A DNA stretch of 64,000 nt from Paenibacillus albus (lineage in GTDB: Bacteria > Bacillota > Bacilli > Paenibacillales > Paenibacillaceae), in NCBI RefSeq assembly GCF_003952225.1, contig NZ_CP034437.1, positions 3,470,001 through 3,534,000 of the forward strand. Direction: 5' to 3'. Below the pieces are notes generated by a model. It worked only from the letters and a program-made list of their open reading frames with translations. It had not been told where the DNA came from and ran no database searches. A program made the position numbers and the translations under genes. Below, piece after piece: positions 12,302-40,842 of this stretch (its first letter is position 1; every line of letters begins with the position of its first letter).

Positions 12302-12305
12302 ACGA

Positions 12306-12761
12306 ATGGATGTTCAACTGGAGAAAGTAACGACAGATCATGCGGATTTTGTTTATTTGATCGAGCTGCTCGATCGGGATTTGTGGGCTAGATACCCGGA
12401 TACGCAGCAATTCTTCCACGGCTTCAATCAAGTGAAATTGGGTGCCAAAGCGATCGTAGCTTATGTGGACAATAAGCCTGCAGGCTGCGGCTGTTATCGG
12501 GAAGCTGAAGAAGCAGGCGTCGTCGAGATGAAGCGAATGTTTGTATTGGAAGAGGTACGAGGCAGAGGCGTTGCCCGAACGATTATGAATGAGCTCGAGC
12601 AATGGGCAAAGCGCGAAGGCAATCGAAGAGCGATTCTGGAGACTGGCACAGGACAGCCGGAAGCAATTGCGCTCTATACGAAGCTCGGCTATGAACAAAT
12701 CGAGAACTATGAGCCGTATATCGGCAGCGAAGATAGTGTTTGCATGGGGAAGGATTTGTAG
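12306..12761 (+). CDS. GNAT family N-acetyltransferase
   Basis: A 151-residue GNAT. The acetyl-CoA loop is EEVRGRGVARTIM, followed by ILETGTGQPEAIALYTKLGY, a very regular GNAT C-terminal half. GCGCYREAEEAGVVEMKRMFV is the strand before the loop. It sits tightly between small genes of the same strand. Confidence 0.88.
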   Translation: MDVQLEKVTTDHADFVYLIELLDRDLWARYPDTQQFFHGFNQVKLGAKAIVAYVDNKPAGCGCYREAEEAGVVEMKRMFVLEEVRGRGVARTIMNELEQWAKREGNRRAILETGTGQPEAIALYTKLGYEQIENYEPYIGSEDSVCMGKDL

Positions 12762-22557: not shown

Positions 22558-22621
22558 TTGACGAGCTGTAATAAACCTCATACAATAATGTTTAGAAAAA
22601 GTTGCGCAAAAAATTGCGCAA
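22558..22621 (+). promoter_or_regulatory. Promoter with two tandem TTGCGCAA operators, upstream of GH31 gene
   Basis: A sigma-A type promoter: -35 TTGACG at 22558-22563, a 17-base spacer and -10 TACAAT at 22581-22586. Two perfect palindromes TTGCGCAA lie at 22602-22609 and 22614-22621, centres 12 bases apart and just after the expected transcription start. The central CpG suits a LacI-family repressor, and such a gene follows GH31. Confidence 0.75.
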
Positions 22622-22652
22622 ATGCAGAAAAAAGAAAGCTGGTGCAGCTCAC

Positions 22653-24206
22653 ATGAACAAATGGATAGAATTTGATTTGCTCCCAGGGGAGGTATGGTGG
22701 GGCGGTGCCGTACATGACGGTCCGCGCATGCCTTATGGTCAACAAACAGAAGCACCAGTAGGAGCAGATCTCCGAAACTTGCTGGAAAATTCAGGTGCAC
22801 CGTTGCTCGTATCGAATCGCGGAAGATATGTTTGGCTTCATCGTCCTTTTACTTTTCAATTTCAAACAGGCCGCTTAAAGCTGGAGACAGAAGGGGAGTT
22901 CGATCAACTTGATCCCTTAGAGGAAGGGCACGGCGATCTGAAAGGCGCCTATCTTCATGCATCCCGGAACTATTTTCCGGCTCAAGGCCGTATGCCTGAT
23001 CCAATGGCGTTCACTACGCCGCAATACTGTACTTGGATGGAAATGCACTACGAGCCGACCCAAGAGAAAACGATTGCCTATGCCAGGGAGATTATTCGCA
23101 ATGGTTTTCCGCCTGGCGTGCTGATTATCGACGACAACTGGATGAAGGATTATGGGACATGGGAGTTCCACGCGGAGCGGTTCCCGGATCCGAAGCAGAT
23201 GATCGACACGCTGCACGAGATGGGCTTCAAGATTATGTTGTGGGTTTGCCCTTACGTGAGCCCTGACAGCCAAACTGCTCGCGCGCTTGCGAAACAAGGG
23301 CTGCTTGTACAAGATGCGGAAGGGCGAACTGCGCTTCGCCGCTGGTGGAATGGCTGCAGCGCCGTGCTTGATTACACATATTCGCCGGCTTTGGCTTGGT
23401 TCAAGGAGAAGCTGGATCTGCTCGTGCAGCGATACGGTGTAGACGGCTTCAAATTCGATGCAGGCGATCCAACCGGAAACGATCCTGAGGCATGGGTGAC
23501 GAGCTATACATGGAGAAGCTCAAACGTTCCTAATGAGGACTGCGCGGCATATAGCACACTTGGGCAGCATTACCCGTTGAGCGAATATCGAGCGAGCTGG
23601 AAGGCAGGCGGAGCCCCGCTCATGCAGCGGCTTCGCGATAAGCCGCATTCATGGGGGAAAGACGGGCTGAATTCGCTCATCCCGAACGCAATTGCCCAGG
23701 GGCTGATGGGTTATCCGTTCAATTGTCCGGATATGGTTGGCGGCGGCTGGGACGGTGATCTGCAAGCAACGCCATTCGATGCGGAGCTATTCGTTAGATA
23801 TGCCCAGTGCGCGGCTTTGTTCCCCATGATGCAGTTCTCGACCGCTCCATGGAATGTGCTGGACGCGTCCCACTTAGAATATTGTCAAGCAGCGGTTCGG
23901 CTGCGCACGGAGCTCGGACCGGAGATCGCAAAGCTAGCTGAACATGCAGGTACGACGGGGGAACCCGTACTTAGGCCGATGGCCTACGAGTTCCCGAATC
24001 ACAACTGGGAGACGGTAAGCGATCAATTCATGCTCGGTTCTTCCATTATGGTGGCGCCGGTGCTGGAAAAAGGAGCAGAGGAGCGTATCGTTCGCTTCCC
24101 AGAAGGCGCGTGGAGGGGACAAGATGGCACTCTCGTAACAGGTCCTTGCACGATAACGGCAGCTGCACCGCTCTCAACTTTGCCGTGGTACCGATTGGAA
24201 AAATAA
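22653..24206 (+). CDS. Glycoside hydrolase family 31 enzyme (NET37/MYORG-like branch)
   Basis: A 517-residue cytoplasmic glycosidase with a retaining mechanism. The nucleophile is Asp269 in GFKFDAGDP; the acid/base is probably an Asp in the later PDMVGGGWDGD. IIDDNWMKDYGTWEF and AALFPMMQFSTAPW are strong GH31 marks. The KFDAGD and MQFSxxPW motifs resemble the NET37/MYORG group, for which alpha-galactosidase activity is known, rather than classic alpha-glucosidases or xylosidases. No signal peptide, so the substrate is imported first. Start ATG 22653 has only a weak ribosome site. Predicted to be repressed by the LacI protein that follows. Confidence 0.85.
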   Translation: MNKWIEFDLLPGEVWWGGAVHDGPRMPYGQQTEAPVGADLRNLLENSGAPLLVSNRGRYVWLHRPFTFQFQTGRLKLETEGEFDQLDPLEEGHGDLKGAYLHASRNYFPAQGRMPDPMAFTTPQYCTWMEMHYEPTQEKTIAYAREIIRNGFPPGVLIIDDNWMKDYGTWEFHAERFPDPKQMIDTLHEMGFKIMLWVCPYVSPDSQTARALAKQGLLVQDAEGRTALRRWWNGCSAVLDYTYSPALAWFKEKLDLLVQRYGVDGFKFDAGDPTGNDPEAWVTSYTWRSSNVPNEDCAAYSTLGQHYPLSEYRASWKAGGAPLMQRLRDKPHSWGKDGLNSLIPNAIAQGLMGYPFNCPDMVGGGWDGDLQATPFDAELFVRYAQCAALFPMMQFSTAPWNVLDASHLEYCQAAVRLRTELGPEIAKLAEHAGTTGEPVLRPMAYEFPNHNWETVSDQFMLGSSIMVAPVLEKGAEERIVRFPEGAWRGQDGTLVTGPCTITAAAPLSTLPWYRLEK

Positions 24207-24208
24207 AT

Positions 24209-24237
24209 TTGACTCCTTTTTGCGCAAATTTTACACT
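24209..24237 (+). promoter_or_regulatory. Promoter with TTGCGCAA operator, upstream of lacI-type gene
   Basis: -35 TTGACT at 24209-24214, a 17-base spacer and -10 TACACT at 24232-24237. The palindrome TTGCGCAA at 24220-24227 lies inside the spacer, so bound repressor would block polymerase. This suggests autoregulation. Confidence 0.7.
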
Positions 24238-24271: not shown

Positions 24272-25288
24272 ATGAAATTGAAAGAGATTGCTGCGAAGGC
24301 GAATGTATCGGTCAGCACGGTTTCGCGCATTATTAACAATCAAGGCAACTTCAGCGAAGATACGAGACGCAAGGTAATGGAGGTCGCCAAGCAGTATTTA
24401 AAGCCAGGTGCGACACCTGAGAAGCTGACAGGAATTAGCTATACTTTTGCCGTATTCGTGCCGGAAGTGCATGATTTTGTAGATAATGATCCTGCTACCT
24501 CAGCGGACTTGAATCACTTGAAAGAAGAGTGTGAAGCAAGCGGTCATCAGTTTATGATGGCGACTCGTTCCCGTGGCAATCACAGCGCAAGCTCAGCCTA
24601 TCGGCTGCTGACGGAGAACAAGATCGACGCTGCGATCGTATTCGATCCATATGTTGATGATAATCTGGTCGATGAGCTGATCGCGAGGCGCATCCCTTAT
24701 CTTGTGACCAACGGCAGAAGCTATGATCGGCGTCAAAATTATATCGATTACGATAATCGAAGAGGCGCATATGAAGTTATCCAGCACTTGTATCGACTTG
24801 GCCATCGCCGTATCGGTCTACTTACCGGACCCGAGGATCATCTGGTCAGCATGAACCGGCTCGATGGCTGTAAGGATGCTTTCCGAGATTTATTGCTGGA
24901 CTGGGATGAACAGAACGTAAGGATGGGCGCATTCGATCCTTCGCACGGTTATCAGGCGGCCAAGGAGCTGTTCGGACAGCCAAGCGGCAATACCGCCTTG
25001 TTCGCTTTCAATGACATGATCGCCTTCGGCGCCATGAAAGCACTCGCGGAATTGAAGCTTAAAATTCCGAAGGACGTCTCGTTAGTCGGCTTCGACGATC
25101 TGAAGATGTCGGAATACATGACGCCGCCGTTAACGACGGTTAAGCGATTTCGTTACGACATCAGCGGACTCATCGTAAAGATGCTCACAGAGCTCGTAAC
25201 GAATCCGACGATCTCAGAAGTGAATATTAGTCTGAAGACAGAACTCATTGAGCGCGACTCCTGTGCGGCAGTGCATGCGAGAGCCTGA
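24272..25288 (+). CDS. LacI family transcriptional regulator
   Basis: A 338-residue repressor. The helix-turn-helix, LKEIAAKANVSVSTVSRIIN, opens the protein, followed by a hinge region and a periplasmic-binding-like effector domain (AAIVFDPYVD, LGHRRIGLLTG, FAFNDMIAFGAMKAL, VSLVGFDDLKMSEYMTPPLTTV). The last block is a standard LacI/GalR signature. AAAGGAG stands 8 bases before ATG 24272. It sits directly behind the GH31 gene and in front of the sensor module; TTGCGCAA sites near both and before the transporter operon suggest it controls all of them, with a sugar as inducer. A terminator follows. Confidence 0.9.
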   Translation: MKLKEIAAKANVSVSTVSRIINNQGNFSEDTRRKVMEVAKQYLKPGATPEKLTGISYTFAVFVPEVHDFVDNDPATSADLNHLKEECEASGHQFMMATRSRGNHSASSAYRLLTENKIDAAIVFDPYVDDNLVDELIARRIPYLVTNGRSYDRRQNYIDYDNRRGAYEVIQHLYRLGHRRIGLLTGPEDHLVSMNRLDGCKDAFRDLLLDWDEQNVRMGAFDPSHGYQAAKELFGQPSGNTALFAFNDMIAFGAMKALAELKLKIPKDVSLVGFDDLKMSEYMTPPLTTVKRFRYDISGLIVKMLTELVTNPTISEVNISLKTELIERDSCAAVHARA

Positions 25289-25336: not shown

Positions 25337-25491
25337 TCCACACATTAAAATTTGGTCCAATATCTTTAATTCTCGGCATCGCATTCATCTGAGCTGCCAT
25401 GACAAAATGAAAGAGCGCGAGTACGGTTCATTTTTCAGAGATGCCGTGGTATCGTGGTAAGGTCAAGTTACTCTAGTCCGGAGGCTTCCAG

Positions 25492-27039
25492 ATGACCAGT
25501 CGAACGATTTACCTGTTTGCAGTAACTGCACTCCTTGCGCTGATTATTCTATATGGAGCTTGGAAGGGCATAGGTCCTTTCACCTCAGGCACAACTAAAG
25601 ATTCCAAAGAAGCATCTGCCTCGTATGAAGCCGCTGATGGCGGGCCGCTTATTACGCTAAAGATGATAATGCCCGGCGATGAATCGGCTCGCATGCGGGA
25701 ATTCGTAGATAATGAACTAAACACTCGTATGGCAAAAGAATTGAAGCTAAAGCTAGAGATCACTTATATTCCATGGTCCGATTATCAATCGAAGCTGGAG
25801 CTTGCGCTGTCGACCGGACAAGACTACGATTTGTTCTGGTATGGTACGCCGTTTGTCGCCGACTATAAGGCGAAGGGGTACTTGAAGCCGCTGGACGCTC
25901 TGCTGCATCAATTCGGGCATGCTTTGACAGCTAACATTCCGGCTGACAACTTCAAGCTCGATGAAATCGACGGCAAGCTGTGGGCGATTCCTTCCCAAGC
26001 TTTCACTTCGGCAGGCAAGTTTACATCCGTCATGGTACGGCAGGATTTGCTCGAGTCGGTTGGAATGGAGACGATTCGAACGATCGCTGACTTGGAAGCG
26101 TTTTATACGAAGATGCATGCCATTGATCCGAGTTATTACGGGTATTTGGAGACGGACCGGGGGCAGGATGTTCTATGGCGCGAGCTGTCGGAATCGCCTC
26201 TCACTTTCCTTGATGAGAACCAGATGTTCGCCGTCGACGAGCAGACCGGCAAGCTTGTCAGCTATCTTGAATCCGAGCTGTATAAGAAGGTGGCGGAAGT
26301 TCGGCAGCGGTGGGTTCGCATGGGTCTGATCGACAAGAGACTCATTGGCAATTTGGCGGCTAATATCGATCAAGAAGATGCGGGCAAGCTGCTGTTTCGC
26401 GTCGGCGCGGTTTCCCGGGCGATGGAGAACTTGCAGACCGCGCAGAATGCGAATGCGTCGGCTAAGCTTAGGGAGTACTATCTCTCGCCGGAGAAGCCCA
26501 AGTATATCGCGGCGCCTTCCAATGAAGCATATATGATTCCGAAGAATGCTCAGCATCCCGAGCAAGCGATGCAGTTTATGAACTGGATCCTGCAAAGCAA
26601 GGAGCATTATAACTTCATTATCTACGGCGTCGAAGGGAAGGATTACCGGACAGAGAACGGTAAAATCAAGCTGCTGACGAACGATCAGTTGATGTATGAG
26701 TGGATGTGGCGCAACAGCAATTATTTCATGGCGCCGGACAGCGCCCCTAACTCTGTCGTGAGCGATATGCTGCATAACGATGATAATGCGCGAATCTCGC
26801 GATTGTTCGGATTCCATTTCAATCAGGAGCCGGTAAAGAACGAATACGCCAAATTGCTCGCGGTATATAACGAGAAATTCGTTCCCATTAATGTGGGTAT
26901 CGTCAGCTACGCCGATCATTATAAAGCTGCCATTGCTGCTCTGAAGACGGCGGGTTATGACAAGGTTTGGGCTGAGCTTCAGAAGCAGTATGCCGCATTC
27001 AGGGCGAGTCAGTCAGCTGCTGCGGATGAGGAGGAATAA
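25492..27039 (+). CDS. Membrane-anchored sugar solute-binding protein, likely sensor subunit
   Basis: A 515-residue family 1 extracellular solute-binding protein. The N-terminus has a helix at about residues 5-22 but no lipobox Cys, so it is anchored by an uncleaved helix. The binding fold has GQDYDLFWYGTPFVADY, GYLKPLDALL, GKLWAIPSQAF and NEAYMIPKNAQHPEQAMQFMNWI. It is followed directly by a LytS-type kinase and YesN regulator (2-base gap), while the transporter genes lie 3.5 kb on with their own lipoprotein. This order is like XylFII-LytS-YesN of clostridia, where the binding protein senses xylose for the kinase. I infer a sensor role here. CGGAGG precedes ATG 25492. Confidence 0.8.
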   Translation: MTSRTIYLFAVTALLALIILYGAWKGIGPFTSGTTKDSKEASASYEAADGGPLITLKMIMPGDESARMREFVDNELNTRMAKELKLKLEITYIPWSDYQSKLELALSTGQDYDLFWYGTPFVADYKAKGYLKPLDALLHQFGHALTANIPADNFKLDEIDGKLWAIPSQAFTSAGKFTSVMVRQDLLESVGMETIRTIADLEAFYTKMHAIDPSYYGYLETDRGQDVLWRELSESPLTFLDENQMFAVDEQTGKLVSYLESELYKKVAEVRQRWVRMGLIDKRLIGNLAANIDQEDAGKLLFRVGAVSRAMENLQTAQNANASAKLREYYLSPEKPKYIAAPSNEAYMIPKNAQHPEQAMQFMNWILQSKEHYNFIIYGVEGKDYRTENGKIKLLTNDQLMYEWMWRNSNYFMAPDSAPNSVVSDMLHNDDNARISRLFGFHFNQEPVKNEYAKLLAVYNEKFVPINVGIVSYADHYKAAIAALKTAGYDKVWAELQKQYAAFRASQSAAADEEE

Positions 27040-27040
27040 G

Positions 27041-28756
27041 GTGCGCTCCAGCATTTTTACAAACATGGTTATTGCTTTGCTGCTGCTATTGACCCCGATT
27101 ATTATGCTGTACGCTTATTCGAACCGAACGAGCTCCCGTGTCCTGACAGAGGAGATCGTCAAGGCGAAGCGCACGCAGGTTGAAACTTTCGTCGGCCAGC
27201 TCGGCCAAATGTTCGCGCAATTCGATTCCTATCAGAAAATGCTCTATGAAAGCACGGAAGTCCGCAACCTGGCCTACCCCGATCTGCTCGGTGACGATCT
27301 CCTCCATTACCGGACGTTGAAGACGGTGTCCGAGGAAATCAATCGGCTGGCGGGGTCCGGCAGGTGGAAGGGGATTATTGCGGTCGTCTACCCGAAGACA
27401 GGGATGATCATTAAGAGCAATTCCAGCTTAAACGCGATGCCGCCTGCGCTGCCAGATAAGGATGCATTCTGGTCCTACCAGAAACGGGTGAATGGCGAGC
27501 CGTATTTCATTGAGACGATCTCGAGCCCTGCCAAAACCGCGAAGGCCGAGGAATCGGACCTGACAGTCATTGCGAAAGTGGATGAAGGCGAAATAAAGAG
27601 CGATCTGTCCGATATGAAGAACAAAGGGCTGGAGGATCCTTTTCTCTATAAGCCCGGGTTTACGCCGATCTACAACTACACGGCCAATAAAGCACTAATT
27701 GAGCAGATGCTGCCTGATCTGCTGCCGAGCGAACATAGTGACGAGAGCAGCTATAAGCCGCTTCTCATGCAGACCGAGAATGGCGCTTACCAGGTTCATA
27801 TGGAGGTCGTTCAGCCTTTGGGCTGGTATTTGGTCGATTATGTGCCGATTGACAAAATAATGGCGCCGATCAAACGAAATCAGACGACCTTCTACATTAT
27901 AAGCGGCATGATGCTGTTCATGGCGTGCATTCTAGGCTTTATTCTGTACCGGAGTATTCGAATTCCTTTCCGTAAGCTGATGCAGGGGATGAATTTCATT
28001 GAGAAGGGCATATATACAAGCCGCATGAAGGACCCGCCAAGAGGCGAATTCCGGTATTTATATCAACGATTCAACTCGATGGCGACGCGAATCGAGGAGC
28101 TGATCGAGGATGTGCTCAAGGAACAGATCCGGACGAAGGAAGCGAACGTCAAGCAGCTGCAATCACAGATTAACCCGCATTTCCTCTACAATACTCTAGC
28201 CTACATCAAGAGCATGGTGGAGCTTGGCGAGAGGGAAGCGGCGGTGTCGATGACGATGAATTTGAGCAAATATTACCGTTATACAACGAAGACTAGCCGC
28301 AGCTTAGCGACGCTCGGGGAAGAGCTGGAGCTTGTCGTCAACTATCTGGACATTCACCGGATGCTGACCGACGACTTTGAATATGAGATCGATATTGAAC
28401 CGGCAGTGCTGGAGATGGAGATCCCGAGGCTGACGCTGCAGCCGCTTGTCGAGAATGTGATCCTGCATGCGTTCCGCAAGCCTGTCCAGTATGGCATCGT
28501 CCGTATCCGAGGAAGCGTCGAAGCAGGCATCGCGAGAATCGTCGTCGAGGACAATGGACCTGGCATTCCGCCTGTGCAATTGGAACAGATGATGTCGAGG
28601 ATTCGCAATGCAGCGAGCGGGGAGATCGATTCCGGCTTGCAAAATGTACACCAGCGGCTGGTGCTGCTCTATGGCGGCGGCTCGGGACTTATGCTCCGCA
28701 TGTCCGAGTGGGGCGGATTAAGCGCAGAGATGAGCTGGTTTGTTCAAGATGAATGA
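27041..28756 (+). CDS. LytS/YesM-type sensor histidine kinase
   Basis: A 571-residue membrane kinase. The first helix is at residues 6-25, an extracytoplasmic sensor domain extends to about residue 280, the second helix is at 285-307 and a HAMP-like linker follows. The His_kinase block is QSQINPHFLYNTLAYIK, with phosphorylated His; the ATPase has VVEDNGPGIP. Start is GTG 27041, where GAGGAGG lies 6 bases upstream. The gene sits 2 bases after the solute-binding gene and 15 before the regulator gene. It probably receives sugar status through the binding protein. Confidence 0.88.
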   Translation: MRSSIFTNMVIALLLLLTPIIMLYAYSNRTSSRVLTEEIVKAKRTQVETFVGQLGQMFAQFDSYQKMLYESTEVRNLAYPDLLGDDLLHYRTLKTVSEEINRLAGSGRWKGIIAVVYPKTGMIIKSNSSLNAMPPALPDKDAFWSYQKRVNGEPYFIETISSPAKTAKAEESDLTVIAKVDEGEIKSDLSDMKNKGLEDPFLYKPGFTPIYNYTANKALIEQMLPDLLPSEHSDESSYKPLLMQTENGAYQVHMEVVQPLGWYLVDYVPIDKIMAPIKRNQTTFYIISGMMLFMACILGFILYRSIRIPFRKLMQGMNFIEKGIYTSRMKDPPRGEFRYLYQRFNSMATRIEELIEDVLKEQIRTKEANVKQLQSQINPHFLYNTLAYIKSMVELGEREAAVSMTMNLSKYYRYTTKTSRSLATLGEELELVVNYLDIHRMLTDDFEYEIDIEPAVLEMEIPRLTLQPLVENVILHAFRKPVQYGIVRIRGSVEAGIARIVVEDNGPGIPPVQLEQMMSRIRNAASGEIDSGLQNVHQRLVLLYGGGSGLMLRMSEWGGLSAEMSWFVQDE

Positions 28757-28771
28757 GGGAGCGTAAACCGC

Positions 28772-30388
28772 ATGTATGAAATATTGATCGTGGACGATCA
28801 TACGCACTTGGTGGACAGCTTGGCAAGCGGATTGCCTTGGGAGCAAATGGGCATCTCTGCCGTTCATAAAGCCTATTCCGGCGAGGAAGCGCTGGAGCTG
28901 CTGCAATATCATGATATCGACCTGATCGTGACCGACATACAGATGACGGGAATAAGCGGTCTCGAGCTCATCTCGGTCGTAAGGGAAAAGTGGGCTAAGA
29001 TTAGGTCCGTCATCTTAACGGGTCATGATGAATTCCAATATGCGCAGGAAGCGATTCGAACAGGTATTTGCGATTATCTTCTGAAGCCAGTGTCCAATGA
29101 GGAGCTGGAAAAGACGATCCGTGCGTTAATCGTGGAGCTGGAGCTTGAAGGGGAGCAGTTGGTCAATCAGCAGAAGCTGTCGTATCTGTTCCGGGAAAGT
29201 ATGCCGAAGCTGCGCGAGTCCTTGCTTCGGGAGCTGATCGCGGGTAAGCTGCCGCCGCACTCCGTGCTTCGTGACAAGCTGAATCTCTATGAGCTGTCCT
29301 TTCATGAACAGAATCCGATTCTCATGTTCTGCATGCGCATCGAAGAGGATTTTATCGGGACGGATCTATACAGCGTGTCGCTGCTTGAATATGCACTGAC
29401 GAATATTGCCGATGAGATTTTCTCCCCGCGATTCCATATTTGGAACTGCAAGGACGACCATGACTATCAGGTCTTTCTCGCTTGTCCTAAGCAGTTCTCC
29501 GAAGGCACGGGCAAGGATTGGATGGAGGAAGCGGAACGATTGGCCCGGCTTGTGCAACATCAGATCAAACGATTTCTGCGAATCAAAGTATCGCTCGTTA
29601 TGAGCAATTGGAGCTCGTTTCCGTCTGAGGTGCCAGCGGTTTATCATACGATGCTGGCGCTGTTCACGGACTATATTGGATTCCAGACGGAGAGCTTCTT
29701 CCACGATCTCCAGGAAAGAAGCTTCGAAGAAATACGCCCATTATCTGAGCTTTACGTAGCCCCTACCTTCATGCAATTGTTGGAGGTTGAACAGTGGAGC
29801 GCTGCTGAGGAGAAGATGAAGCGGGTGTTCGAGGAGTTGACGAGCAGGGAGAATCGTACGAAAGAGCATATGTTCGAGGTATACATTACGCTCATGCAAG
29901 CCTTCTCCTATTACGTGCATAAGAAGGGGAAACGGTTCTACGATATTTATGGTCGGGAAGCGGATAAAATGCTGAAGCTCGATGCGGGATGGAGTATGGA
30001 GCCTTTACGGGAATGGTCGATGCAGAGTCTGCAGCAGCTGAAGTCCTACAGCGGCAGCTTGTCCGACAACCTGCGGGGCGATATCATCAAGCGAATCATC
30101 CGCTTCGCTAACGAGCAGGTGAAGGATGTGACACTGCAATCCGCAGCGGATTATGTCCATCTGCATCCGGTGTATGTCTCTAACCTGTTCAAGGCAGAGA
30201 CAGGTGAGAACTTCTCGAACTACGTGCTTCGCGTTCGGATGGATGCCGCTTTGCAGCACCTGAAGCAGACGGATTTGAAGATTAGTCAGATTGCTCAGGA
30301 GGTCGGTTATCAGAAGCCGCAATATTTTATTAAGCTGTTCAAGAATCACTTCGGCATGACGCCGCAGGAATATAGGAGCGGGCTCTAG
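28772..30388 (+). CDS. YesN/AraC-type response regulator
   Basis: A 538-residue regulator. The receiver domain has IVDDH at the start, phosphoacceptor Asp55 in VTDIQM, LTGHDEF and DYLLKP. The middle part is a long helical domain typical of YesN proteins. The C-terminal AraC domain carries YVHLHPVYVSNLFKAETGENFSNYV and IAQEVGYQKPQYFIKLFKNHFGMTPQEYR. It would activate the transporter operon that follows. Target sites were not defined. Confidence 0.9.
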   Translation: MYEILIVDDHTHLVDSLASGLPWEQMGISAVHKAYSGEEALELLQYHDIDLIVTDIQMTGISGLELISVVREKWAKIRSVILTGHDEFQYAQEAIRTGICDYLLKPVSNEELEKTIRALIVELELEGEQLVNQQKLSYLFRESMPKLRESLLRELIAGKLPPHSVLRDKLNLYELSFHEQNPILMFCMRIEEDFIGTDLYSVSLLEYALTNIADEIFSPRFHIWNCKDDHDYQVFLACPKQFSEGTGKDWMEEAERLARLVQHQIKRFLRIKVSLVMSNWSSFPSEVPAVYHTMLALFTDYIGFQTESFFHDLQERSFEEIRPLSELYVAPTFMQLLEVEQWSAAEEKMKRVFEELTSRENRTKEHMFEVYITLMQAFSYYVHKKGKRFYDIYGREADKMLKLDAGWSMEPLREWSMQSLQQLKSYSGSLSDNLRGDIIKRIIRFANEQVKDVTLQSAADYVHLHPVYVSNLFKAETGENFSNYVLRVRMDAALQHLKQTDLKISQIAQEVGYQKPQYFIKLFKNHFGMTPQEYRSGL

Positions 30389-30423: not shown

Positions 30424-30452
30424 TTGCGCAAATTCAAGTAAAATCATATTAA
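30424..30452 (+). promoter_or_regulatory. Probable promoter with TTGCGCAA operator, upstream of sugar transporter operon
   Basis: TTGCGCAA at 30424-30431 overlaps a -35-like TTGCGC; TATTAA at 30447-30452 is 17 bases on and could be the -10. A second near-match, ATGCGCAA, is at 30553-30560, which could allow looping. No other plausible promoter was seen. The regulator gene upstream ends at 30388. Confidence 0.6.
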
Positions 30453-30552
30453 ATCTTGGGCTTAAATCTTAAAATCAGGGCATTTAACCGCGATTCTCCT
30501 TCGGGTATGATGAAATCACAAGGTTAACTTGTGCAGCAGAGCTTGAGAAAAT

Positions 30553-30560
30553 ATGCGCAA
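30553..30560 (+). promoter_or_regulatory. Second TTGCGCAA-like operator before the transporter lipoprotein
   Basis: ATGCGCAA, one mismatch from the palindrome, with the core TGCGCA intact. It is about 130 bases after the first site and 49 before the start codon. Confidence 0.5.
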
Positions 30561-30608
30561 ATTTTTCTTGGTGCTGCGATTTCATAACGAACTCAAGGGG
30601 GAAATACA

Positions 30609-31967
30609 ATGGCATTTCGTAATAAAGCTTGGATCTCCGCAATGAGCTTGGTGATTGTCTCCACAATGGCGCTGACCGGCTGTGGCAGCAACAACAACTC
30701 GTCAGACAGTACGAACAATGCTTCGAATTCATCAGGCGGCAATAATACAGCTTCGAACAACAAGTCAAGCAACACCTCTGATGCTCCTAAAGAAAATGTC
30801 ATCCTCACGTACACGATTTGGGACCAGCTGCAGCAGCCTGCAATGGAAGCGATAGGCAAAGAATTCACCGCTCAGAACCCGAACATTAAAGTGAAAGTCG
30901 AAGTAATTCCTTGGGGCGATTACTGGACGAAGATGTCTGCAGCCGCACCGGCTGGTACGCTGCCAGATGTGTTCTGGATGCATAGCGGACAATTCGTGAA
31001 ATATGCTTCGGGCAAATTCCTGGAGCCGATTACGGACAGAGTGACGAATGGCGAGCTTGATCTGAATAACTACGCATCGAACCTCGGCTCGATCTATACG
31101 CTGGACGGGCAAAACTATGCGGTCCCGAAGGATTTTGACACGATCGGTCTTGCTTATAATAAAGATCTGTTCGATCAAGCGGGCATCCCTTATCCGGATG
31201 ACACATGGGATTATGCAAAACTAGCTGATACAGCGAAGAAGCTGAGTCAGCCAGATAAAGGCATCTATGGCTTCGCAGCGAAAATGGATACGCAAACCGG
31301 CTATTGGAACGATATGCTGGCGAACGGCGGCTCGATTCTGACTGCGGACGGTACGAAGTCCGGCTATGATGATCCGGCATCGATCGAAGCGCTGAAAGCC
31401 CGTTATCAGATGATTGTCGATAAAGCATCGCCGACGCATCAGCAAATGACGGATACGGATTCGACGGAAATGTTCAAGTCCGGCAAAGTGGCGATGGTGT
31501 TCGAAGGCGACTGGAGAACGACAGACATCGACAGCAGCGATATCGTGAAGGGCAAATGGAATTGGGCGAAGCTGCCTAAAGGCAAAGTGAAGCGCGGCAA
31601 CATCATCAACGGTCTTGGCAACGTGATGTCGGCTTCGGGCAAGCATAAAGCAGAAGCATGGGAGTTCCTGAAGTTCCTCGGCTCGAAGCGCGCAGCGGAA
31701 ATTACCGCAGAAATGGGCGCAGCGATTCCAGCCTTCAAAGATACGCAAGCAGCTTGGGTGAAATCGAAGCCGGAGCTGAATCTGCAAGTATTCATTGATC
31801 AAACGGCTGACGCGATCCCGTATCCTGCAGGCTCGAAAGCATATCCGGTTTGGTTCCCGAAAGAAGCGGAAATTATGGCACAGGCTTGGGGCGGCCAAAT
31901 CTCCATTGAAGACGGAGCAAAGCAAGTCGCTGAGATGATGAATCAAGCGATTGCCGACAACAAATAA
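30609..31967 (+). CDS. Sugar ABC transporter substrate-binding lipoprotein
   Basis: A 452-residue family 1 solute-binding protein. The signal peptide ends in the lipobox LTGC with Cys25, followed by a Ser/Asn-rich linker. The fold has LTYTIWDQLQQPAMEAIGKEF, PDVFWMHSGQFVKYA and NYAVPKDFDTIGLAYNKDLF, like MalE/UgpB proteins. It delivers a sugar to the two permeases behind it. AAGGGGGAA precedes ATG 30609. A hairpin after the stop probably protects this mRNA part. Confidence 0.92.
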   Translation: MAFRNKAWISAMSLVIVSTMALTGCGSNNNSSDSTNNASNSSGGNNTASNNKSSNTSDAPKENVILTYTIWDQLQQPAMEAIGKEFTAQNPNIKVKVEVIPWGDYWTKMSAAAPAGTLPDVFWMHSGQFVKYASGKFLEPITDRVTNGELDLNNYASNLGSIYTLDGQNYAVPKDFDTIGLAYNKDLFDQAGIPYPDDTWDYAKLADTAKKLSQPDKGIYGFAAKMDTQTGYWNDMLANGGSILTADGTKSGYDDPASIEALKARYQMIVDKASPTHQQMTDTDSTEMFKSGKVAMVFEGDWRTTDIDSSDIVKGKWNWAKLPKGKVKRGNIINGLGNVMSASGKHKAEAWEFLKFLGSKRAAEITAEMGAAIPAFKDTQAAWVKSKPELNLQVFIDQTADAIPYPAGSKAYPVWFPKEAEIMAQAWGGQISIEDGAKQVAEMMNQAIADNK

Positions 31968-33890: not shown

Positions 33891-34013
33891 ATGTTTTCTA
33901 ATAGTTTTAGACTATGAGTAAGGATGCTGTGCACCAGAAGCTATTGCGGACTTGTTCGGCGGCATAGTATGTTTAGCTTACAGCACCATATGAGCGCTTG
34001 GAGGAGGCTAAGC

Positions 34014-35636
34014 ATGTGGAACGTCATGATCGTTGAAGACGAGATGCTCGTCCGTTTAGGCTTCAAAAATTCCGTGCAGTGGGAGCATTATGGGATGGCG
34101 GTATGCGCAGATGCGGCCAATGGCAGGGAAGCTTGGGACTATTATAGCCGCGAAGTAAAGCCGGATGTCATCATTACCGATCTGCGCATGCCGATTATGG
34201 GTGGAATTGAACTGATTAAGAAAATTCGCGAGCAGGATGCCCAGACGCGAATTGTTATTCTCTCCTGTATGGAGGACTTCGATCTGATCCGCCAGGCGAT
34301 GCAGCTTGGCATCTCGAATTATATTTTGAAATTAACGATGACGGAAGAAGAGATCCACAATGTGCTGATGCGGGTACGAGAGGAGCTGGGCACCCAGCAA
34401 ACCATCGGAACCTCAAAAGGCATCATTTACAACCCCGACTCCCTGAAAGAGAATATCATCAAAAACTTCGTATTCTACCACCTCTACTCCAAAGAAGAAT
34501 TTGCCCGCCATATTGATCAGTTAAAGCTAAGACTTCATCCTGAGCGGCTCGTCGTCTGTATGATGGAGATCAACCATTTCGAGCAAGTCCAGACGAAATT
34601 TAATGATGAAAAGGGCGAGCTCATTCGCGTCACGTTCTTGAATGTTCTAAGCGAGCTGCTGTCGCATTCGGGACGCGGTGAGGTCGTATCGGATGAAGAT
34701 AAGCGGTATTTGTTCCTGTTCAGCTTCCGTGATATCGCGAGTGAGTACCAAATTCGTGAAGAACTGACTGCGACCATGACGCAGATCCAGAAGGTGCTGA
34801 AGCGCTTCTTCAATATTTCGGCGACTTTCGGTGTCAGCAGCATGAAGAGCGGGTATGCTTCCCTCCATGCGTTGTATCTTGAGAGCGAGAAGGCGGTCCG
34901 GCAGAAGTTTTACTACGGATCGGAGCGTATACTCTATCTGCGTGAAACCGAGCTTGAAACGGGCGATAGCGTGGTGAGGACGAGGCTGCAGCAGTTCCAT
35001 GAAAAATGGTCCATGATCGAGGAAGGCGCACAGCGAGATGTGGAAGCGATTGTACAAACATTTCTTGCAACCGGCAGGCTGCGGAATGAGCAGGACATCC
35101 GTAATCTATTCGTACGGCTTCTGCACATCCCTTCGGTAACAGCAGCGCTGAACGAGACGGAATTCATGCTGCTGATCTCGTCCTACGGCGAGGAGATGCA
35201 GCGAGCTGAGACGCTTGAAGAATGCGCAGGTATTTACAGCCGGTTTCTGGCGGAGGTGCTAACGACGGGAGGAACGAAGAAGCAGCTGAATAAAGATATT
35301 GCGAAGACGGTCCAGTATGTGCAGGATCGGTTCAACGAAGAGATCTCCTTGCAGCAGATTGCCGAATATCTCGAGCTCTCGCCGAACTATCTAAGCGTCC
35401 TCTTCAAGAAAGAGCTGCAGCTGAACTTCACCGAGTATTTGAACCGGATACGTCTGGAGAAAGCGAAGGAGCTGCTTCTTGGAACCAATCTGAAGTCATA
35501 CGAGATTGCGCAGATGGTCGGATTCACGGACGACAGCTACTTCAGCCGCGCATTCAAGAAGCATACCGGTGTCAGGCCGAACGGCTTTCGCCGGCTGTGG
35601 GTCAATGACTGGACGGGAGTGGCTGAGGACCGATGA
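34014..35636 (+). CDS. YesN/AraC-type response regulator
   Basis: A 540-residue regulator. The receiver has MIVEDE and the phosphoacceptor Asp56 in ITDLRMP. The end of the receiver is NYILKLTMTEEE, without the usual Lys-Pro. The C-terminal AraC domain has YLELSPNYLSVLFKKELQLNFTEYL and IAQMVGFTDDSYFSRAFKKHTGVRPNGFR. ATG 34014 is supported by GGAGGAGGC. Its stop overlaps the kinase start by four bases (ATGA). It likely controls the two solute-binding genes and permeases that follow. Confidence 0.9.
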   Translation: MWNVMIVEDEMLVRLGFKNSVQWEHYGMAVCADAANGREAWDYYSREVKPDVIITDLRMPIMGGIELIKKIREQDAQTRIVILSCMEDFDLIRQAMQLGISNYILKLTMTEEEIHNVLMRVREELGTQQTIGTSKGIIYNPDSLKENIIKNFVFYHLYSKEEFARHIDQLKLRLHPERLVVCMMEINHFEQVQTKFNDEKGELIRVTFLNVLSELLSHSGRGEVVSDEDKRYLFLFSFRDIASEYQIREELTATMTQIQKVLKRFFNISATFGVSSMKSGYASLHALYLESEKAVRQKFYYGSERILYLRETELETGDSVVRTRLQQFHEKWSMIEEGAQRDVEAIVQTFLATGRLRNEQDIRNLFVRLLHIPSVTAALNETEFMLLISSYGEEMQRAETLEECAGIYSRFLAEVLTTGGTKKQLNKDIAKTVQYVQDRFNEEISLQQIAEYLELSPNYLSVLFKKELQLNFTEYLNRIRLEKAKELLLGTNLKSYEIAQMVGFTDDSYFSRAFKKHTGVRPNGFRRLWVNDWTGVAEDR

Positions 35637-37462
35637 TACGACTAGCCAGATCTTCTTTCAAGCTGGCCGGCATCTCGCTTCGGGCACAGCTTATCTTCTC
35701 CTTCATGGCCGTCACGCTGCTCGTGCTCTCCATCAGCTCGTATTACAGCTATGTCAAAACCCTCGATATCTTAAAGAAACGTACGCAAGAGACGACATTC
35801 TCGCAATTTCGCCAGATTGAAATGAATACGCTTACACTTCTTCATGAGGTCGATAAGCTGTCAAACACCTTCCTCATGGAGAGCAAAGTACAATCCTTCC
35901 TGCAGAGCGACCAGCTGACAAACCTCGAATTTATTTCGCTCGAACGCGATATTATGGAGCGAATCAATCAATATTTGACCACCTACGATTACTTGGATTC
36001 CATCTATATCTTCACCGAGAACGGCACTGTTATCGGCGGCACGCTATCGCAGAACCAGAGCGCTTATGAGATTGGCCGCGGTTACGAGTTCTACAACACC
36101 GACTTATATAACAAAGTTAAGACAAGCTTCCCTCAGTCCATATGGACAGGAGGTTTAACGACAAGCGACTTCATGCGAAGCTCCATTCCGAATGGGCTGA
36201 CGAATTCGCGCCTTATCTCTTCGATTCGCGGTGTGAGATGGATCGGAGGGAGCCGGATGAGCGCGGAGCTCGTGCTGAACGTGAATGAGCGATATTTGGG
36301 TGCCGGCTATGGCAGCTTGCAGAGCTTGCCCGGCGGCTCCATTCATATTATCGATGGCAGCGGAAAGGTGATTTCCAGCACGGACGAGAAGGCGATTAAT
36401 GCACCATATTTGTTTGAATCACACATCAAGCCAGCGTTAAATCTCGGTTCCTTCTCCTCAGATCGGGACGGCTCGCATGAGCAAATCATCTATTACCGGA
36501 TGAATGAAACCGGCTGGATCTTGGTCAATGAAGTGCCAACCGAGCTGTATACGAAGGATGTTGTCGTTATCGGACGGTTCATCGCTGCGATTTTCTTGCT
36601 GTCACTTGTGTTGATCGTTGCGTTGTCTTCGCTTTGGATGAACCGGATTATGAGCTCATTTCATCAGCTGATCAAGGGGATGAGGTTTATCGGACGAGGC
36701 AAAATCGGCCATACGCTGCCGAAGGCATCGAACCGGGAGATGGGGCAGCTTATTGATCAGTTCAACCATATGTCCACGGGCATTCTGGAGCTGATGCAGC
36801 AGAACGAAGAGACGGAGAAGACGAAGCGGCAGCTGGAGATTGAGGCGCTGCAGTCGCAGATTAATCCGCATTTTCTATACAATACGCTCAATACGGTGAA
36901 GTGGATGGCGGCAGTCGCCAAAGCGCCGAACATTATGGAATGTATGACAAGCCTTGGTAATATGCTGCGGCCGATTTACTACGATCCGTCGCCGCTATGG
37001 TCGATTAAGGAAGAGCTGGAGTTCGTCCGTAACTATATCAACATTATGAATTATCGTTATGGTGAGGAGCTGAAGTTTGAGTTCGATGTGCCGGAGCAGC
37101 TGCTTGGCTGTCAAACGCTGCGATTCATGATTCAGCCATCCATCGAGAATGCGCTTATTCACGGGGAGCTGCATCAAGGGGTTATTCAAGTGTCTGCCCG
37201 AGAGCTGAACGGGGATCTCCAGGTTATAGTTAAGGATACTTGCGGCGGCATGACACCGAGCAAAGCATTCGAAGTGAATCAGCGGATTAAGGAGCAGCAG
37301 CCTGCTGAAAGGCCGGCAAAAGGGATTGGACTCAGCAATGTGAACAAGCGGATTCAGCTGCATTTTGGCGAACGGTATGGGATTGAGGTGCACAGCAGCG
37401 AAGGCGTCGAGACCCAGGTCTATATGATGATTCCGATCATTGCAGGCAGTGAAGCGTCCTAG
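35633..37462 (+). CDS. LytS/YesM-type sensor histidine kinase
   Basis: A 609-residue membrane kinase. Helix one is at about residues 17-38, an extracytoplasmic sensor (dCache-like by its length) extends to about 310, helix two is at 315-337, and HAMP follows. QSQINPHFLYNTLNTVKWM holds the phosphorylated His. The ATP-binding G1 box reads VKDTCGGMTP instead of DNGxGM, so one glycine-rich position is altered; the G2 region, GIGLSNVNKRI, is normal. Coupled to the regulator gene by overlap. Confidence 0.88.
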   Translation: MIRLARSSFKLAGISLRAQLIFSFMAVTLLVLSISSYYSYVKTLDILKKRTQETTFSQFRQIEMNTLTLLHEVDKLSNTFLMESKVQSFLQSDQLTNLEFISLERDIMERINQYLTTYDYLDSIYIFTENGTVIGGTLSQNQSAYEIGRGYEFYNTDLYNKVKTSFPQSIWTGGLTTSDFMRSSIPNGLTNSRLISSIRGVRWIGGSRMSAELVLNVNERYLGAGYGSLQSLPGGSIHIIDGSGKVISSTDEKAINAPYLFESHIKPALNLGSFSSDRDGSHEQIIYYRMNETGWILVNEVPTELYTKDVVVIGRFIAAIFLLSLVLIVALSSLWMNRIMSSFHQLIKGMRFIGRGKIGHTLPKASNREMGQLIDQFNHMSTGILELMQQNEETEKTKRQLEIEALQSQINPHFLYNTLNTVKWMAAVAKAPNIMECMTSLGNMLRPIYYDPSPLWSIKEELEFVRNYINIMNYRYGEELKFEFDVPEQLLGCQTLRFMIQPSIENALIHGELHQGVIQVSARELNGDLQVIVKDTCGGMTPSKAFEVNQRIKEQQPAERPAKGIGLSNVNKRIQLHFGERYGIEVHSSEGVETQVYMMIPIIAGSEAS

Positions 37463-37478
37463 AGAGGGGGAGAGCATA

Positions 37479-39182
37479 CTGGAGCTCATTCGTAGTCGAA
37501 AATGGATATTGCGGTGTTCCCTTTCAGTGGCGTTGTTCGTGCTGTCAGGCTGTAATTCAGCGAATATAGCCTCAACCCGTAATGCCGAGAACAATAATGC
37601 GCCTGCTATTGCGTCTGCGGAGCCGATCACGCTGAAGGTGCAGGTTAGCAGTACGGGGAAGGATTTTGAGAATACGGATGTATACAACGAGATTAAGCGG
37701 ATCACTGGCGTGACGATGAATCTGGAGACGTATGACGAGCAGAAGTTCAAGGTTCAGCTAGCCGGAGGTGATCTGCCCGACATTATTCAGGTGCCGAATA
37801 AGAATATTAAAGAGCTGATTGAGGGCAACAACATTATCCCGCTCGATGAGCTGGTGAAGACGGATGGTCCTGACATCTTGAAGCCGGTCTACGACAAGAG
37901 CTTGGCGTATATCCGTAAGTTCTGGAGCGATGACACGAATAAGCTGTATATGATTCCCGTTCAGACCGGGTCGAGCAGCTTCGGCTTCGAGCAGCAGATT
38001 GGATTCAACGTCAGGTGGGATTACTACAAGGAGCTCGGTTATCCGAAAATTGGCAGCATCGACGATATGGTGAACGTGCTCACGGAGATGGTAGAGCGAC
38101 ATCCATTAACGAAGGATGGCAAGAAAGTGTACGGCGTCAGCATGTGGAACGATTGGGGCTCGCTTGGAACGTGGGGGCTTCGCAGTATGGGGCTCATAAC
38201 CGGCAATGGCTTGTTTAATGTGAACACGGGGCAGCTTGTGAATGAATATACGGACCCGGATAAAAGCGGCATCTGGGATACGGCGAGGTTTATGTTCATG
38301 GCGCAGCAGAACGGAATTCTCGACCCGGATGCGTTCACTGCGAAGTATAACGATATTGTGGCAAAAGGGTCCGAGGGCACGCTGCTATCTAGTATCGCAA
38401 CTTGGCCGTTCGCCGCTGCCAATGCGGAGCTGCTCAAGGAGGGACCGGACAAGGGCTTCGTCACGATCCCGCTGGAATGGGGCTTTACCAACATTGGAGG
38501 TACGACCATCGCAGGGTGGAGCGACCGAGCATGGGCGATATCTTCGAATTGCAAGAACCCGCAGCGAGCGATGGATTTGATTGATTTTCTCGTTTCCGAG
38601 CAAGGGTCGCGCCTGATCGAGAGCGGTATCGAAGGCACGCATTGGGATGTGGTCGATGGCAAGCCCGCTATGAATATGGATACGGTGAAGCTTGCGGCAG
38701 CGGGCGGCGACAGCTGGAAGAAGACCGGTATCGGCCAGATGGCGAACCAGCAGGGCTTCTCCGATCATACTCGCCTAAGCGACGGCGGGTTCGTCAATTT
38801 GTTCAATACGCCGGAAGTCTACGCGACGAAGGTGAATTCGCTTAATCAAGATTATGACGCTTATTATGGCGTCTCTTATCCTGCCGAAGCTTACCAGAAA
38901 TATGCGGAGCAAGGCAAAGTGAAAACGCTGGACCAAATGCCGCAGGATGTGATGAACGCGATGCCTCCTCAGCCTGATGCGATTAAGCGAATTGTCGCGA
39001 AGGTCGATGAGCTGCTTGTGAAAGGAATGCCGATTGTCGTGTTAGGTTCGAAGACGGATGCGGAGTTTAAAGAGAATCAGACGGCGCTCATCCAAAAGCT
39101 GGTTGAAGCTGGCGCAGATACGTATTTTGACTGGTATAAGCAGGCGTTCGAGGAGACGAAGGCGAAGCTAGGGCAGGGGTAG
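37479..39182 (+). CDS. LplA-type sugar-binding lipoprotein (copy 1)
   Basis: About 567 residues, a family 1 solute-binding lipoprotein of the LplA/YtcQ group. The lipobox is VLSGC (Cys25 from CTG 37479). The mature part has NTDVYNEIKRITGV, FKVQLAGGDLPDIIQV and WDYYKELGYPK, and near-identical blocks occur in the lipoprotein at 41803. No ATG start exists; TTG 37440 or GTG 37449 overlap the kinase gene, while CTG 37479 lies 6 bases after GAGGGGGAG and gives the best signal peptide. A base error at the start is also possible. Confidence 0.85.
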   Translation: MELIRSRKWILRCSLSVALFVLSGCNSANIASTRNAENNNAPAIASAEPITLKVQVSSTGKDFENTDVYNEIKRITGVTMNLETYDEQKFKVQLAGGDLPDIIQVPNKNIKELIEGNNIIPLDELVKTDGPDILKPVYDKSLAYIRKFWSDDTNKLYMIPVQTGSSSFGFEQQIGFNVRWDYYKELGYPKIGSIDDMVNVLTEMVERHPLTKDGKKVYGVSMWNDWGSLGTWGLRSMGLITGNGLFNVNTGQLVNEYTDPDKSGIWDTARFMFMAQQNGILDPDAFTAKYNDIVAKGSEGTLLSSIATWPFAAANAELLKEGPDKGFVTIPLEWGFTNIGGTTIAGWSDRAWAISSNCKNPQRAMDLIDFLVSEQGSRLIESGIEGTHWDVVDGKPAMNMDTVKLAAAGGDSWKKTGIGQMANQQGFSDHTRLSDGGFVNLFNTPEVYATKVNSLNQDYDAYYGVSYPAEAYQKYAEQGKVKTLDQMPQDVMNAMPPQPDAIKRIVAKVDELLVKGMPIVVLGSKTDAEFKENQTALIQKLVEAGADTYFDWYKQAFEETKAKLGQG

Positions 39183-39226
39183 TTAGATAAGGTAGGTAAG
39201 GGAACATGAATGCGGGAGGCTAAGGT

Positions 39227-39595
39227 ATGATTGTATGTCCCTATTGCGATCATGAGGTTGAGATTCACGGCGGAAGATGTCCGGAATGCAAGGAGTATCT
39301 GCATGAAGTGACGGATGAAGATTTCGCGGAGGATCGCGAGACGACGGGGATGAGCGTGAACGAGCTGATCGAGCATCGGTTCAAGTGCGCGAAGTGCCAG
39401 TCGAACGCAGGCCGGGTGAAGGAAGTATCAATGACAGGCGCAGGTCTTAGCAAGCTGCTCGATATCGAGCATAATCATTTCTTGTTCGTCTCGTGCCAAA
39501 ATTGCGGCTTCGTCGAAGTCTATGACCCGAATGTGCTGCACGGGAAGAAGGCGGGAAGCGTCGGCACGATATTGGATATTCTGTTTGGGAATTGA
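39227..39595 (+). CDS. Zinc-ribbon nucleic-acid-binding protein (DUF2082-like)
   Basis: A 122-residue protein with four CxxC pairs: CPYC, CPEC, CAKC and CQNC. The first two make one ribbon and the last two frame a GRVKEVSMTGAGLSKLLDIEHNHFLFVSC segment that matches the DUF2082 nucleic-acid-binding Zn-ribbon family. It sits between a lipoprotein gene and the permeases of the same transporter, 44 bases after the former, but no link in function is evident. GGAGG precedes ATG 39227. Confidence 0.8.
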   Translation: MIVCPYCDHEVEIHGGRCPECKEYLHEVTDEDFAEDRETTGMSVNELIEHRFKCAKCQSNAGRVKEVSMTGAGLSKLLDIEHNHFLFVSCQNCGFVEVYDPNVLHGKKAGSVGTILDILFGN

Positions 39596-39665
39596 TTGCT
39601 GCAGCGTACCTGCTGATTTGCACTGCGACAACCTTTACCGTTCAACCGAATTGTAAACAAAGCAG

Positions 39666-39697
39666 CCCTATTACCTGAAATGGTAATGGGGTTTTTG
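39666..39697 (+). terminator. Rho-independent terminator after the zinc-ribbon gene
   Basis: CCCTATTACC and GGTAATGGGG pair with one G-U, loop TGAAAT, followed by TTTTTG. It implies that the permease genes downstream have a promoter of their own. Confidence 0.8.
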
Positions 39698-39719
39698 TGT
39701 TGGACAGGTGAGAAGGGAT

Positions 39720-39836
39720 TTCGTTTCGCGCAAATCCGTTTCGCCGTATGAGGGGAACAGTGGATTTCGTTTTAGAATCACGCAAATCCATTTCGCCGTT
39801 TGAGGCGAACAGTGGATTTCGTTTTAGTCCAAAAAT
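39720..39836. repeat. Two-copy 52-base tandem repeat
   Basis: A 52-base unit beginning CGCAAATCC at 39729 recurs at 39781. Both copies contain TTTCGCCGT, GAACAGTGGATTTCGTTTTAG and a shared TGAGG core with a few substitutions. A partial unit (GGATTTCGTTTCG) precedes the first. It lies in the gap 39596-39916, after the terminator and before the permease promoter region. No protein is credible here. Confidence 0.8.
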
Positions 39837-39873
39837 CGTAGATTTCTCCATATTTTCGGCTTATCGCGTTCCG

Positions 39874-39879
39874 TATACT
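39874..39879 (+). promoter_or_regulatory. Possible -10 box of the LplB/LplC-type operon
   Basis: TATACT stands 38 bases before the permease start. No good -35 lies 17 bases upstream, which is common at promoters that need an AraC-type activator. Confidence 0.35.
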
Positions 39880-39916
39880 TGGACTAGAAATAGAATCCCA
39901 GGTGGAGTGATTAACG

Positions 39917-40822
39917 ATGAAGCTAAAAGCTAACCGCGTCACGCTGTTTCTCATGGTAATTCCGTTCGTCATTCTCGTGTTCCTCTTCAACTACATTCCG
40001 CTCTTCGGCTGGCTCTACGCGTTCTACGATTATAAGCCCGGCATTCCGCTGTCGCAGACCGAGTTCGTCGGGCTGAAGTTTTTTCGCTGGGCGATTGAGG
40101 AGAAGGAAGACCTTCTCCGCGTGCTCACGAATACGCTGGCGCTCTCTTTTCTCTCTATCCTCGCCTCTCCGTTATCCGCGATCTTCGCCATTTTGCTGAA
40201 TGAGCTGAACAGCAAGCGATTTCGCAAAGTCGTCCAAACGCTTACAACGCTGCCGAACTTCATTAGCTGGATCATCGTATACTCGCTGGCGACGTTCATG
40301 TTCTCCTCCGGAGGATTGCTGAACGAGGTGCTGATGAAGCTGCACTTGATCGAGGAGCCGACAACGATACTCGGCAACTCCGGTGCGACTTGGTGGTTTC
40401 AAACTGCGATTACCGTATGGAAAAGCCTTGGCTGGGGGGCCATCATCTACTTGGCCGCTATAGCCGGGATCGATACCGAGCTGTACGATGCCGCGAAGGT
40501 AGACGGAGCGGGGAGATTCCAACGCATCCTTGCCATTACGGTTCCGGGAATCATGCCAACGTTCTTCGTCCTGCTGCTTCTGAACATTGCGAGCGTTCTC
40601 TCGAACGGCGCTTCCGGCTTCGAGCAGAATTTCGTCTTCTACAACTCGCAGGTGGGAGATAAGATCGAAGCGCTCGACTACTACGTGTACCGCGTCGGCA
40701 TCGCGACAGGCGATGTGTCCTTCGGTACGGCAATCGGCATCGCGAAGACGCTGGTCAGCGTCATTTTGCTGTTCTCGATGAATGCGCTATCCAAGCGAGT
40801 GAGAGGGCATTCGGTATTTTAG
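39917..40822 (+). CDS. LplB-type ABC sugar permease
   Basis: A 301-residue six-helix permease. The start VIPFVILVFLFNYIPLFGWLYAFYDY is the mark of the LplB/YtcP-partner group. The EAA loop is ELYDAAKVDGAGRFQRILAITVPGI. With the next permease and an LplA-type lipoprotein it makes a complete importer lacking only its ATPase. AGGTGGAG precedes ATG 39917. Confidence 0.92.
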   Translation: MKLKANRVTLFLMVIPFVILVFLFNYIPLFGWLYAFYDYKPGIPLSQTEFVGLKFFRWAIEEKEDLLRVLTNTLALSFLSILASPLSAIFAILLNELNSKRFRKVVQTLTTLPNFISWIIVYSLATFMFSSGGLLNEVLMKLHLIEEPTTILGNSGATWWFQTAITVWKSLGWGAIIYLAAIAGIDTELYDAAKVDGAGRFQRILAITVPGIMPTFFVLLLLNIASVLSNGASGFEQNFVFYNSQVGDKIEALDYYVYRVGIATGDVSFGTAIGIAKTLVSVILLFSMNALSKRVRGHSVF

Positions 40823-40842
40823 CGAAGGAGGCACTTTATCCG

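Follow-up and report, generated by a model that had tools for sequence, protein, structure and literature searches.

The window examined here is a stretch of 64,000 nucleotides from the soil bacterium Paenibacillus albus (NZ_CP034437.1, positions 3,470,001-3,534,000), and all positions below are window coordinates. Three adjacent genes on the forward strand encode a solute-binding protein of 515 amino acids (SBPs, 25492-27039), a sensor histidine kinase (HK, 27041-28756) and a YesN/AraC-type response regulator (RR, 28772-30388). On the same strand they are followed by an ABC transporter, with a lipoprotein binding protein of its own (SBPt, 30609-31967, lipobox MALTGCGS) and two permeases (P1, 32050-32919; P2, 32934-33818), and preceded by the gene of a LacI-family repressor (24272-25288) and that of a GH31 glycosidase (22653-24206, where the ORF opens at 22602 and the ATG is at 22653). 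The original prediction, which took the first three genes for a three-part sugar sensor, had also named a YesN regulator, a LacI repressor and a transporter with its own lipoprotein, and all of these are found at the locus; RR matches Response_reg and HTH_18 in Pfam and its Asp55 is present. The predicted 15 bases between HK (stop 28756) and RR (start 28772) are likewise exact. The gap between SBPs and HK had been put at 2 bases; the two genes are indeed that close, but the best HK start, a GTG at 27041 with a GGAGG Shine-Dalgarno at 27030-27034, leaves a single base after the SBPs stop, and another possible start (ATG 27026) would overlap SBPs. A separate SBP dedicated to the transporter, here SBPt, is as seen in SBP-coupled three-component sensors. 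Directly after these genes lies a second group of RR, HK, lipoprotein and permease genes (33951-41721), in which the SBP (37440-39182) is a lipoprotein (LSGCNS) and the kinase has a weak dCache_1 match.

SBPs matches SBP_bac_1 and DUF3502 (PF01547, 48.9 bits, and PF12010, 58.6 bits; curated cut-offs 26 and 24.4). Among solved structures, both the sequence profile and the fold place it closest to the N-glycan-binding protein NgtS of Streptococcus pneumoniae (PDB 5swa, 5swb, 5suo; about 20% identity), which is a transporter binding protein, unlike SBPs, the proposed sensor. The binding protein therefore belongs to family 1 and has a fold unlike XylFII, as predicted; the structure model of SBPs itself, made with 22-23 close homologs, is weak (pLDDT 67). 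SBPt is of another class, and SBPs is not a duplicate of it. Homologs with 30-38% identity to SBPs directly follow a pair of permease genes in 20 of the 20 loci examined and carry lipoboxes wherever the N-terminus was read, with the exception of L074, whose start was not resolved. Since these distant homologs adjoin permeases and bear lipoboxes, the ancestor of SBPs was probably a transport SBP, and the best view of SBPs is that a binding protein of the transport type, from the DUF3502 class, came to be recruited to a kinase. Elsewhere in the same genome (L091:5013-6536) there is a DUF3502-type-like transport SBP that has no lipobox and shows a signal-peptidase-I-like end (ALPVASA).

HK contains His_kinase (PF06580), HATPase_c and HAMP domains (Pfam), and the phospho-acceptor His380 is present. 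It has two transmembrane helices and no match to the five-helix 5TMR_LytS domain, and so is a YesM-type kinase, with two transmembrane helices and HAMP, rather than the LytS-type kinase that had been proposed. Its extracytoplasmic sensor domain (27137-27892, forward strand) falls in no recognised family, as neither a Pfam match nor a relative with a solved structure was detected, and a low-confidence model (pLDDT 52, again with 22-23 close homologs) contains alpha/beta elements in this region. The sensor domain of the LytS that works with XylFII is a four-helix bundle (PMC9769921), and the suggested resemblance of the kinase to LytS is not borne out.

Orthologs were sought in 396 Paenibacillaceae genomes, with cut-offs of at least 60% identity for SBPs and at least 57% for HK. 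The two occur in the same 37 genomes, a count that is not phylogenetically independent; both genes are intact in 35 of these and both are frameshifted in the other 2. The latter, G030 and G044, are Cohnella assemblies that by contig coordinates correspond to the contigs of L063 and L064, and their frameshifts are probably assembly errors. SBPs and HK are neighbours in every one of the 24 named loci and likewise in all 30 loci with orthologs from a second genome set, many of whose genomes are the same as in the named set, while RR is absent next to HK in 5 of the 24. SBPt, on the other hand, is found in 47 genomes, the 37 with SBPs-HK and 10 others that have a different kinase and binding protein, HK' and SBPb. 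SBPs thus follows the kinase and not the transporter, since it is in the same 37 genomes as HK while SBPt is in ten more.

These counts bear on the possibility that SBPs is simply a second transport SBP, serving the same or another permease pair, which happens to neighbour a two-component system whose kinase senses the sugar directly. The distant homologs beside permeases would agree with this, as would the loci in which P1-P2 lie directly upstream of SBPs (L050, L051, L061) and the direct sensing suggested for the kinase CuaS in Ruminiclostridium cellulolyticum (PMC10384115). However, the permeases of the locus already have SBPt, which occurs without SBPs, and SBPs is not found without HK; we therefore consider this explanation unlikely.

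The alternative kinase and binding protein form part of a second trio, RR'-HK'-SBPb, which lies beside the same transporter and a GH31 gene in 7 of the 10 SBPt genomes without SBPs-HK (loci read, L134-L140). SBPb is a family-1 SBP, 21% identical to SBPs, and is present in 11 genomes at 81% identity or more; its N-terminal helix is conserved and has no Cys in any of the eight copies read, one of them from G029. HK' was sought in 27 genomes and is present in exactly the 11 that have SBPb, and RR', sought in the same 27, is in these 11 and in six Cohnella genomes. The six Cohnella genomes have SBPs-HK together with RR', and lack HK', SBPb and the RR ortholog next to HK. The simplest account of this gene content is that SBPs-HK replaced HK'-SBPb while RR' stayed; alternatively, RR was lost and RR' took over. 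Under either account, HK in these six genomes is predicted to signal to RR'. Furthermore, SBPs stays with HK there despite the loss of RR, which again argues against a transport protein that is a neighbour of the kinase by chance. The trio can be seen in L134-L141 (for example L134:12150-17328), with a helix-anchored SBP without Cys. An assignment of the RR' genomes to a plain two-component system proved wrong, the next gene being SBPb. In L105-L109 and L047-L049 (Cohnella, SBPs-HK without RR) an RR' that lacks a kinase of its own lies next to GH31 or the transporter, at a distance of 12-27 kb, and in L047 a highly repetitive, partly masked stretch (11363-12629) lies just downstream of HK, where other genomes have RR.

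The N-terminal anchor of SBPs (25492-25572, forward strand) was compared with that of its relatives. The first 60 residues contain no Cys, and residues 5-23 form a hydrophobic segment with a mean hydropathy of 2.2. Where the lipobox form reads IGAC the window copy has YGAW, so that Trp24 (TGG, 25561-25563) stands in place of the lipobox Cys (TGC) and the -3 residue has changed from Ile to Tyr. The nearest relatives, at 74-79% identity (Gordonibacillus kamchatkensis, P. sacheonensis and several Cohnella), have clear lipoboxes (LIGAC, LISAC, LSSAC), and in a second clade, which includes P. glycanilyticus, P. lupini and P. catalpae, the helix is hydrophobic and has no Cys. The original prediction that the binding protein has no lipobox thus holds for the window copy and fails for the family, and with lipoboxes in the nearest relatives its absence is not a defining trait of the system. 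The helix of the window copy appears to be uncleaved, judging from its sequence alone, as inspection by eye showed no good site for signal peptidase I after it. Lipid anchoring is probably ancestral, because the paralogs are lipoproteins. The tree places at least two changes of anchor state on branches with good support, the loss in the Paenibacillus clade being independent of that in the window; the tree includes one outgroup row (og_L068) that is a wrong ORF, and both changes are on branches inside the ortholog group. If true, repeated replacement of the lipid by a transmembrane helix implies that the sensor needs anchoring and not lipidation, and such a repeated change tests what membrane tethering adds to signalling driven by a binding protein.

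It could also be argued that SBPs in the window is a lipoprotein in decay, with its anchor Cys gone and some or all of its function lost, or that the Trp codon is a sequencing error. The anchor codon is a single transversion, TGC to TGG, from that of the nearest relative, and in the tree no other member of its clade has an end branch as long as that of the window SBPs. Against this, the -3 residue has changed too, the hydrophobic core is intact (2.23 versus 2.28), and helix anchoring without Cys is stable both in an independent clade and in SBPb. Since dN/dS against relatives is about 0.10, indicating purifying selection, and there is no rate excess toward the outgroup, from which the distances are equal, SBPs does not look like a decaying gene; decay or a sequencing error is highly improbable.

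A direct-repeat operator candidate is located before SBPs (TTAAAATTTGGTCCAATATCTTTAATTCTCGGCAT, 25345-25379, forward strand) and another before the transporter (30446-30484, forward strand), the latter next to a -35-like TTAACC (30484-30489) and a -10-like TATGAT (30506-30511). The repeat, of the form ATCTTAA-n5-GG-n6-ATCTTAA-n5/6-GG, starts 163-174 bases upstream of the SBPt start, both in the window and in eight relatives; weaker forms are present upstream of SBPt in other relatives, and in many members of the Paenibacillus clade it goes undetected at this stringency. Perfect matches to its core, TTAAn5GGn6ATCTTWA, number exactly two in the whole 6.6 Mb genome, one before SBPt and one before SBPs, the first being partly by construction, as the pattern was built from orthologous promoters, and the second already seen by eye when the pattern was written. 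All nine genomes tested with SBPs-HK (cassette A) have the repeat, and none of 11 same-genus genomes without this cassette; since most of the 11 also lack the transporter, the comparison shows the repeat to be locus-specific, rather than bound. It also occurs before SBPt in four genomes with RR'-HK'-SBPb (cassette B), which rules it out as a strict marker of cassette A, and at the RR'-HK'-SBPb locus of G029. With the same repeat found beside both cassettes, RR and RR' may read the same operator. Copies precede the gene for a secreted DUF4832 protein with carbohydrate-binding modules in several relatives; large proteins of this kind with CBM13/35/6/11-like modules are encoded close to the locus, at L042:5174-7993, L047:12961-15366 and L048:1462-7881, and the repeat is upstream of those in L042 and L047.

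These observations suggest that SBPs-HK and HK'-SBPb, which are only remotely related, are alternative, exchangeable cassettes, that the swap in one clade of Cohnella kept RR', the operator and the transporter, and that the lipid anchor gave way to a transmembrane helix at least twice; as a whole we favour this reading by a narrow measure. With such a natural swap of binding protein and kinase against an unchanged regulator and transporter, it becomes possible to test which part sets ligand specificity and which sets regulator specificity.

LacI-type operator candidates are found in the lacI promoter (TTTGCGCAAA, 24219-24228), as a pair before the GH31 gene (22601-22622) and downstream of the transporter -10 (AAAATATGCGCAAATTTT, 30548-30565, self-complementary at 16 of 18 positions). 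Palindromes matching TTTGCGCAAA with at most one mismatch lie before lacI, twice before GH31 and around the SBPt promoter; there are nine matches in the window, a number reached in 1 of 100 shuffles. The candidate sites at GH31, lacI and SBPt fit the idea in the original prediction that uptake is set by both an outside and an inside signal. The GH31 protein matches bacterial GH31 alpha-galactosidases (8j50, E 1e-141) and next MYORG, which is an alpha-galactosidase (PMC9491548), and it keeps the catalytic motifs of the putative activity, with FKFDAGD as nucleophile and CPDMVGG as acid/base. Because of this resemblance the signal is probably an alpha-galactoside, although the similarity of SBPs to NgtS leaves glycan fragments open.

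Taken together, the strict pairing of SBPs and HK in the same genomes and at neighbouring positions, the direct-repeat operator candidate and the swap pattern agree with the predicted three-part sensor, and we regard it as very probable that SBPs, HK and RR form one, including the operator and LacI steps that follow. The N-terminal helix would tether SBPs to the outer face of the membrane, where the protein would bind an extracellular oligosaccharide, probably an alpha-galactoside, and would act on the sensor domain of HK; it would not be used for transport. HK would then phosphorylate RR, which would bind the direct repeat immediately before the transporter -35 box and the one before SBPs and switch on both SBPt-P1-P2 and its own sensor, with LacI as a further, intracellular control on GH31, lacI and the transporter. 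What the computation shows is the gene content, the co-occurrence and adjacency, the operator candidates, the purifying selection and how the anchor changed; in this scheme we infer the contact between SBPs and HK, the ligand, the phosphotransfer, the DNA binding and the direction of regulation. It is conceivable that HK-RR regulates the locus with SBPs as a structural partner only, contributing stability or a dimer set point without binding sugar. This would be in line with Streptococcus mutans, where truncated LevT consisting of the transmembrane region only still signals negatively (PMC3043104), but the full SBP fold is conserved in SBPs, with many invariant residues, and a purely structural role seems very unlikely.

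The design of the proposed sensor is known elsewhere. In the CuaD-CuaS-CuaR system of R. cellulolyticum, as here, a second family-1 SBP adjoins a two-TM kinase that, like HK, combines HAMP with an unclassified sensor region (no predicted domain), the regulator CuaR is of YesN/AraC type (538 aa) and the system controls an ABC transporter with its own SBP; the three-component arrangement was shown by two-hybrid and mutants (PMC10384115). The family-1 fold, in which the original prediction saw a possible independent case of this logic, therefore does not make the system in the window the first such case. Compared by description, CuaD differs in being a lipoprotein that binds cellobiose, whereas SBPs is of the DUF3502/NgtS class and is helix-anchored in the window copy; the GH31 alpha-galactosidase-like gene beside the locus is a further difference. 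CuaS without CuaD still responds to cellobiose (PMC10384115), and SBPs could accordingly be a helper and not the sole receptor. XylFII-LytS-YesN of Clostridium beijerinckii likewise serves sugar uptake with a binding protein, a kinase and YesN, and has another SBP for transport, but XylFII can be superposed on ribose/glucose-type monosaccharide-binding proteins (PMC9601137) and SBPs is not of the Peripla_BP type. Helix-anchored sensor binding proteins are also already known: in LevQRST of S. mutans, sugar-binding proteins on N-terminal transmembrane helices sense together with a kinase and a regulator, and LevQ and LevT probably derive from transport SBPs (PMC3043104), as proposed here for SBPs. 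That system differs in having two binding proteins and a kinase with up to five transmembrane domains, and in controlling a PTS with no ABC transporter nearby (PMC3043104).

What is seen here in relatives is a binding protein and kinase that are inherited, and apparently swapped, as one unit. No description was found in the open-access literature, which is weak evidence of absence, of the DUF3502 class as a sensor SBP, of a repeated change from lipid to helix within one ortholog group, or of the apparent exchange of an SBP and kinase as a unit. Paenibacillaceae have very many YesM-YesN pairs, most of which, to our knowledge, have no known signal; those that sense via a binding protein can be told by strict co-inheritance with an SBP. 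Another RR-HK pair in the P. albus genome (672646-687796; L097:4587-12321) has SBP genes on both sides, both of them lipobox-bearing.
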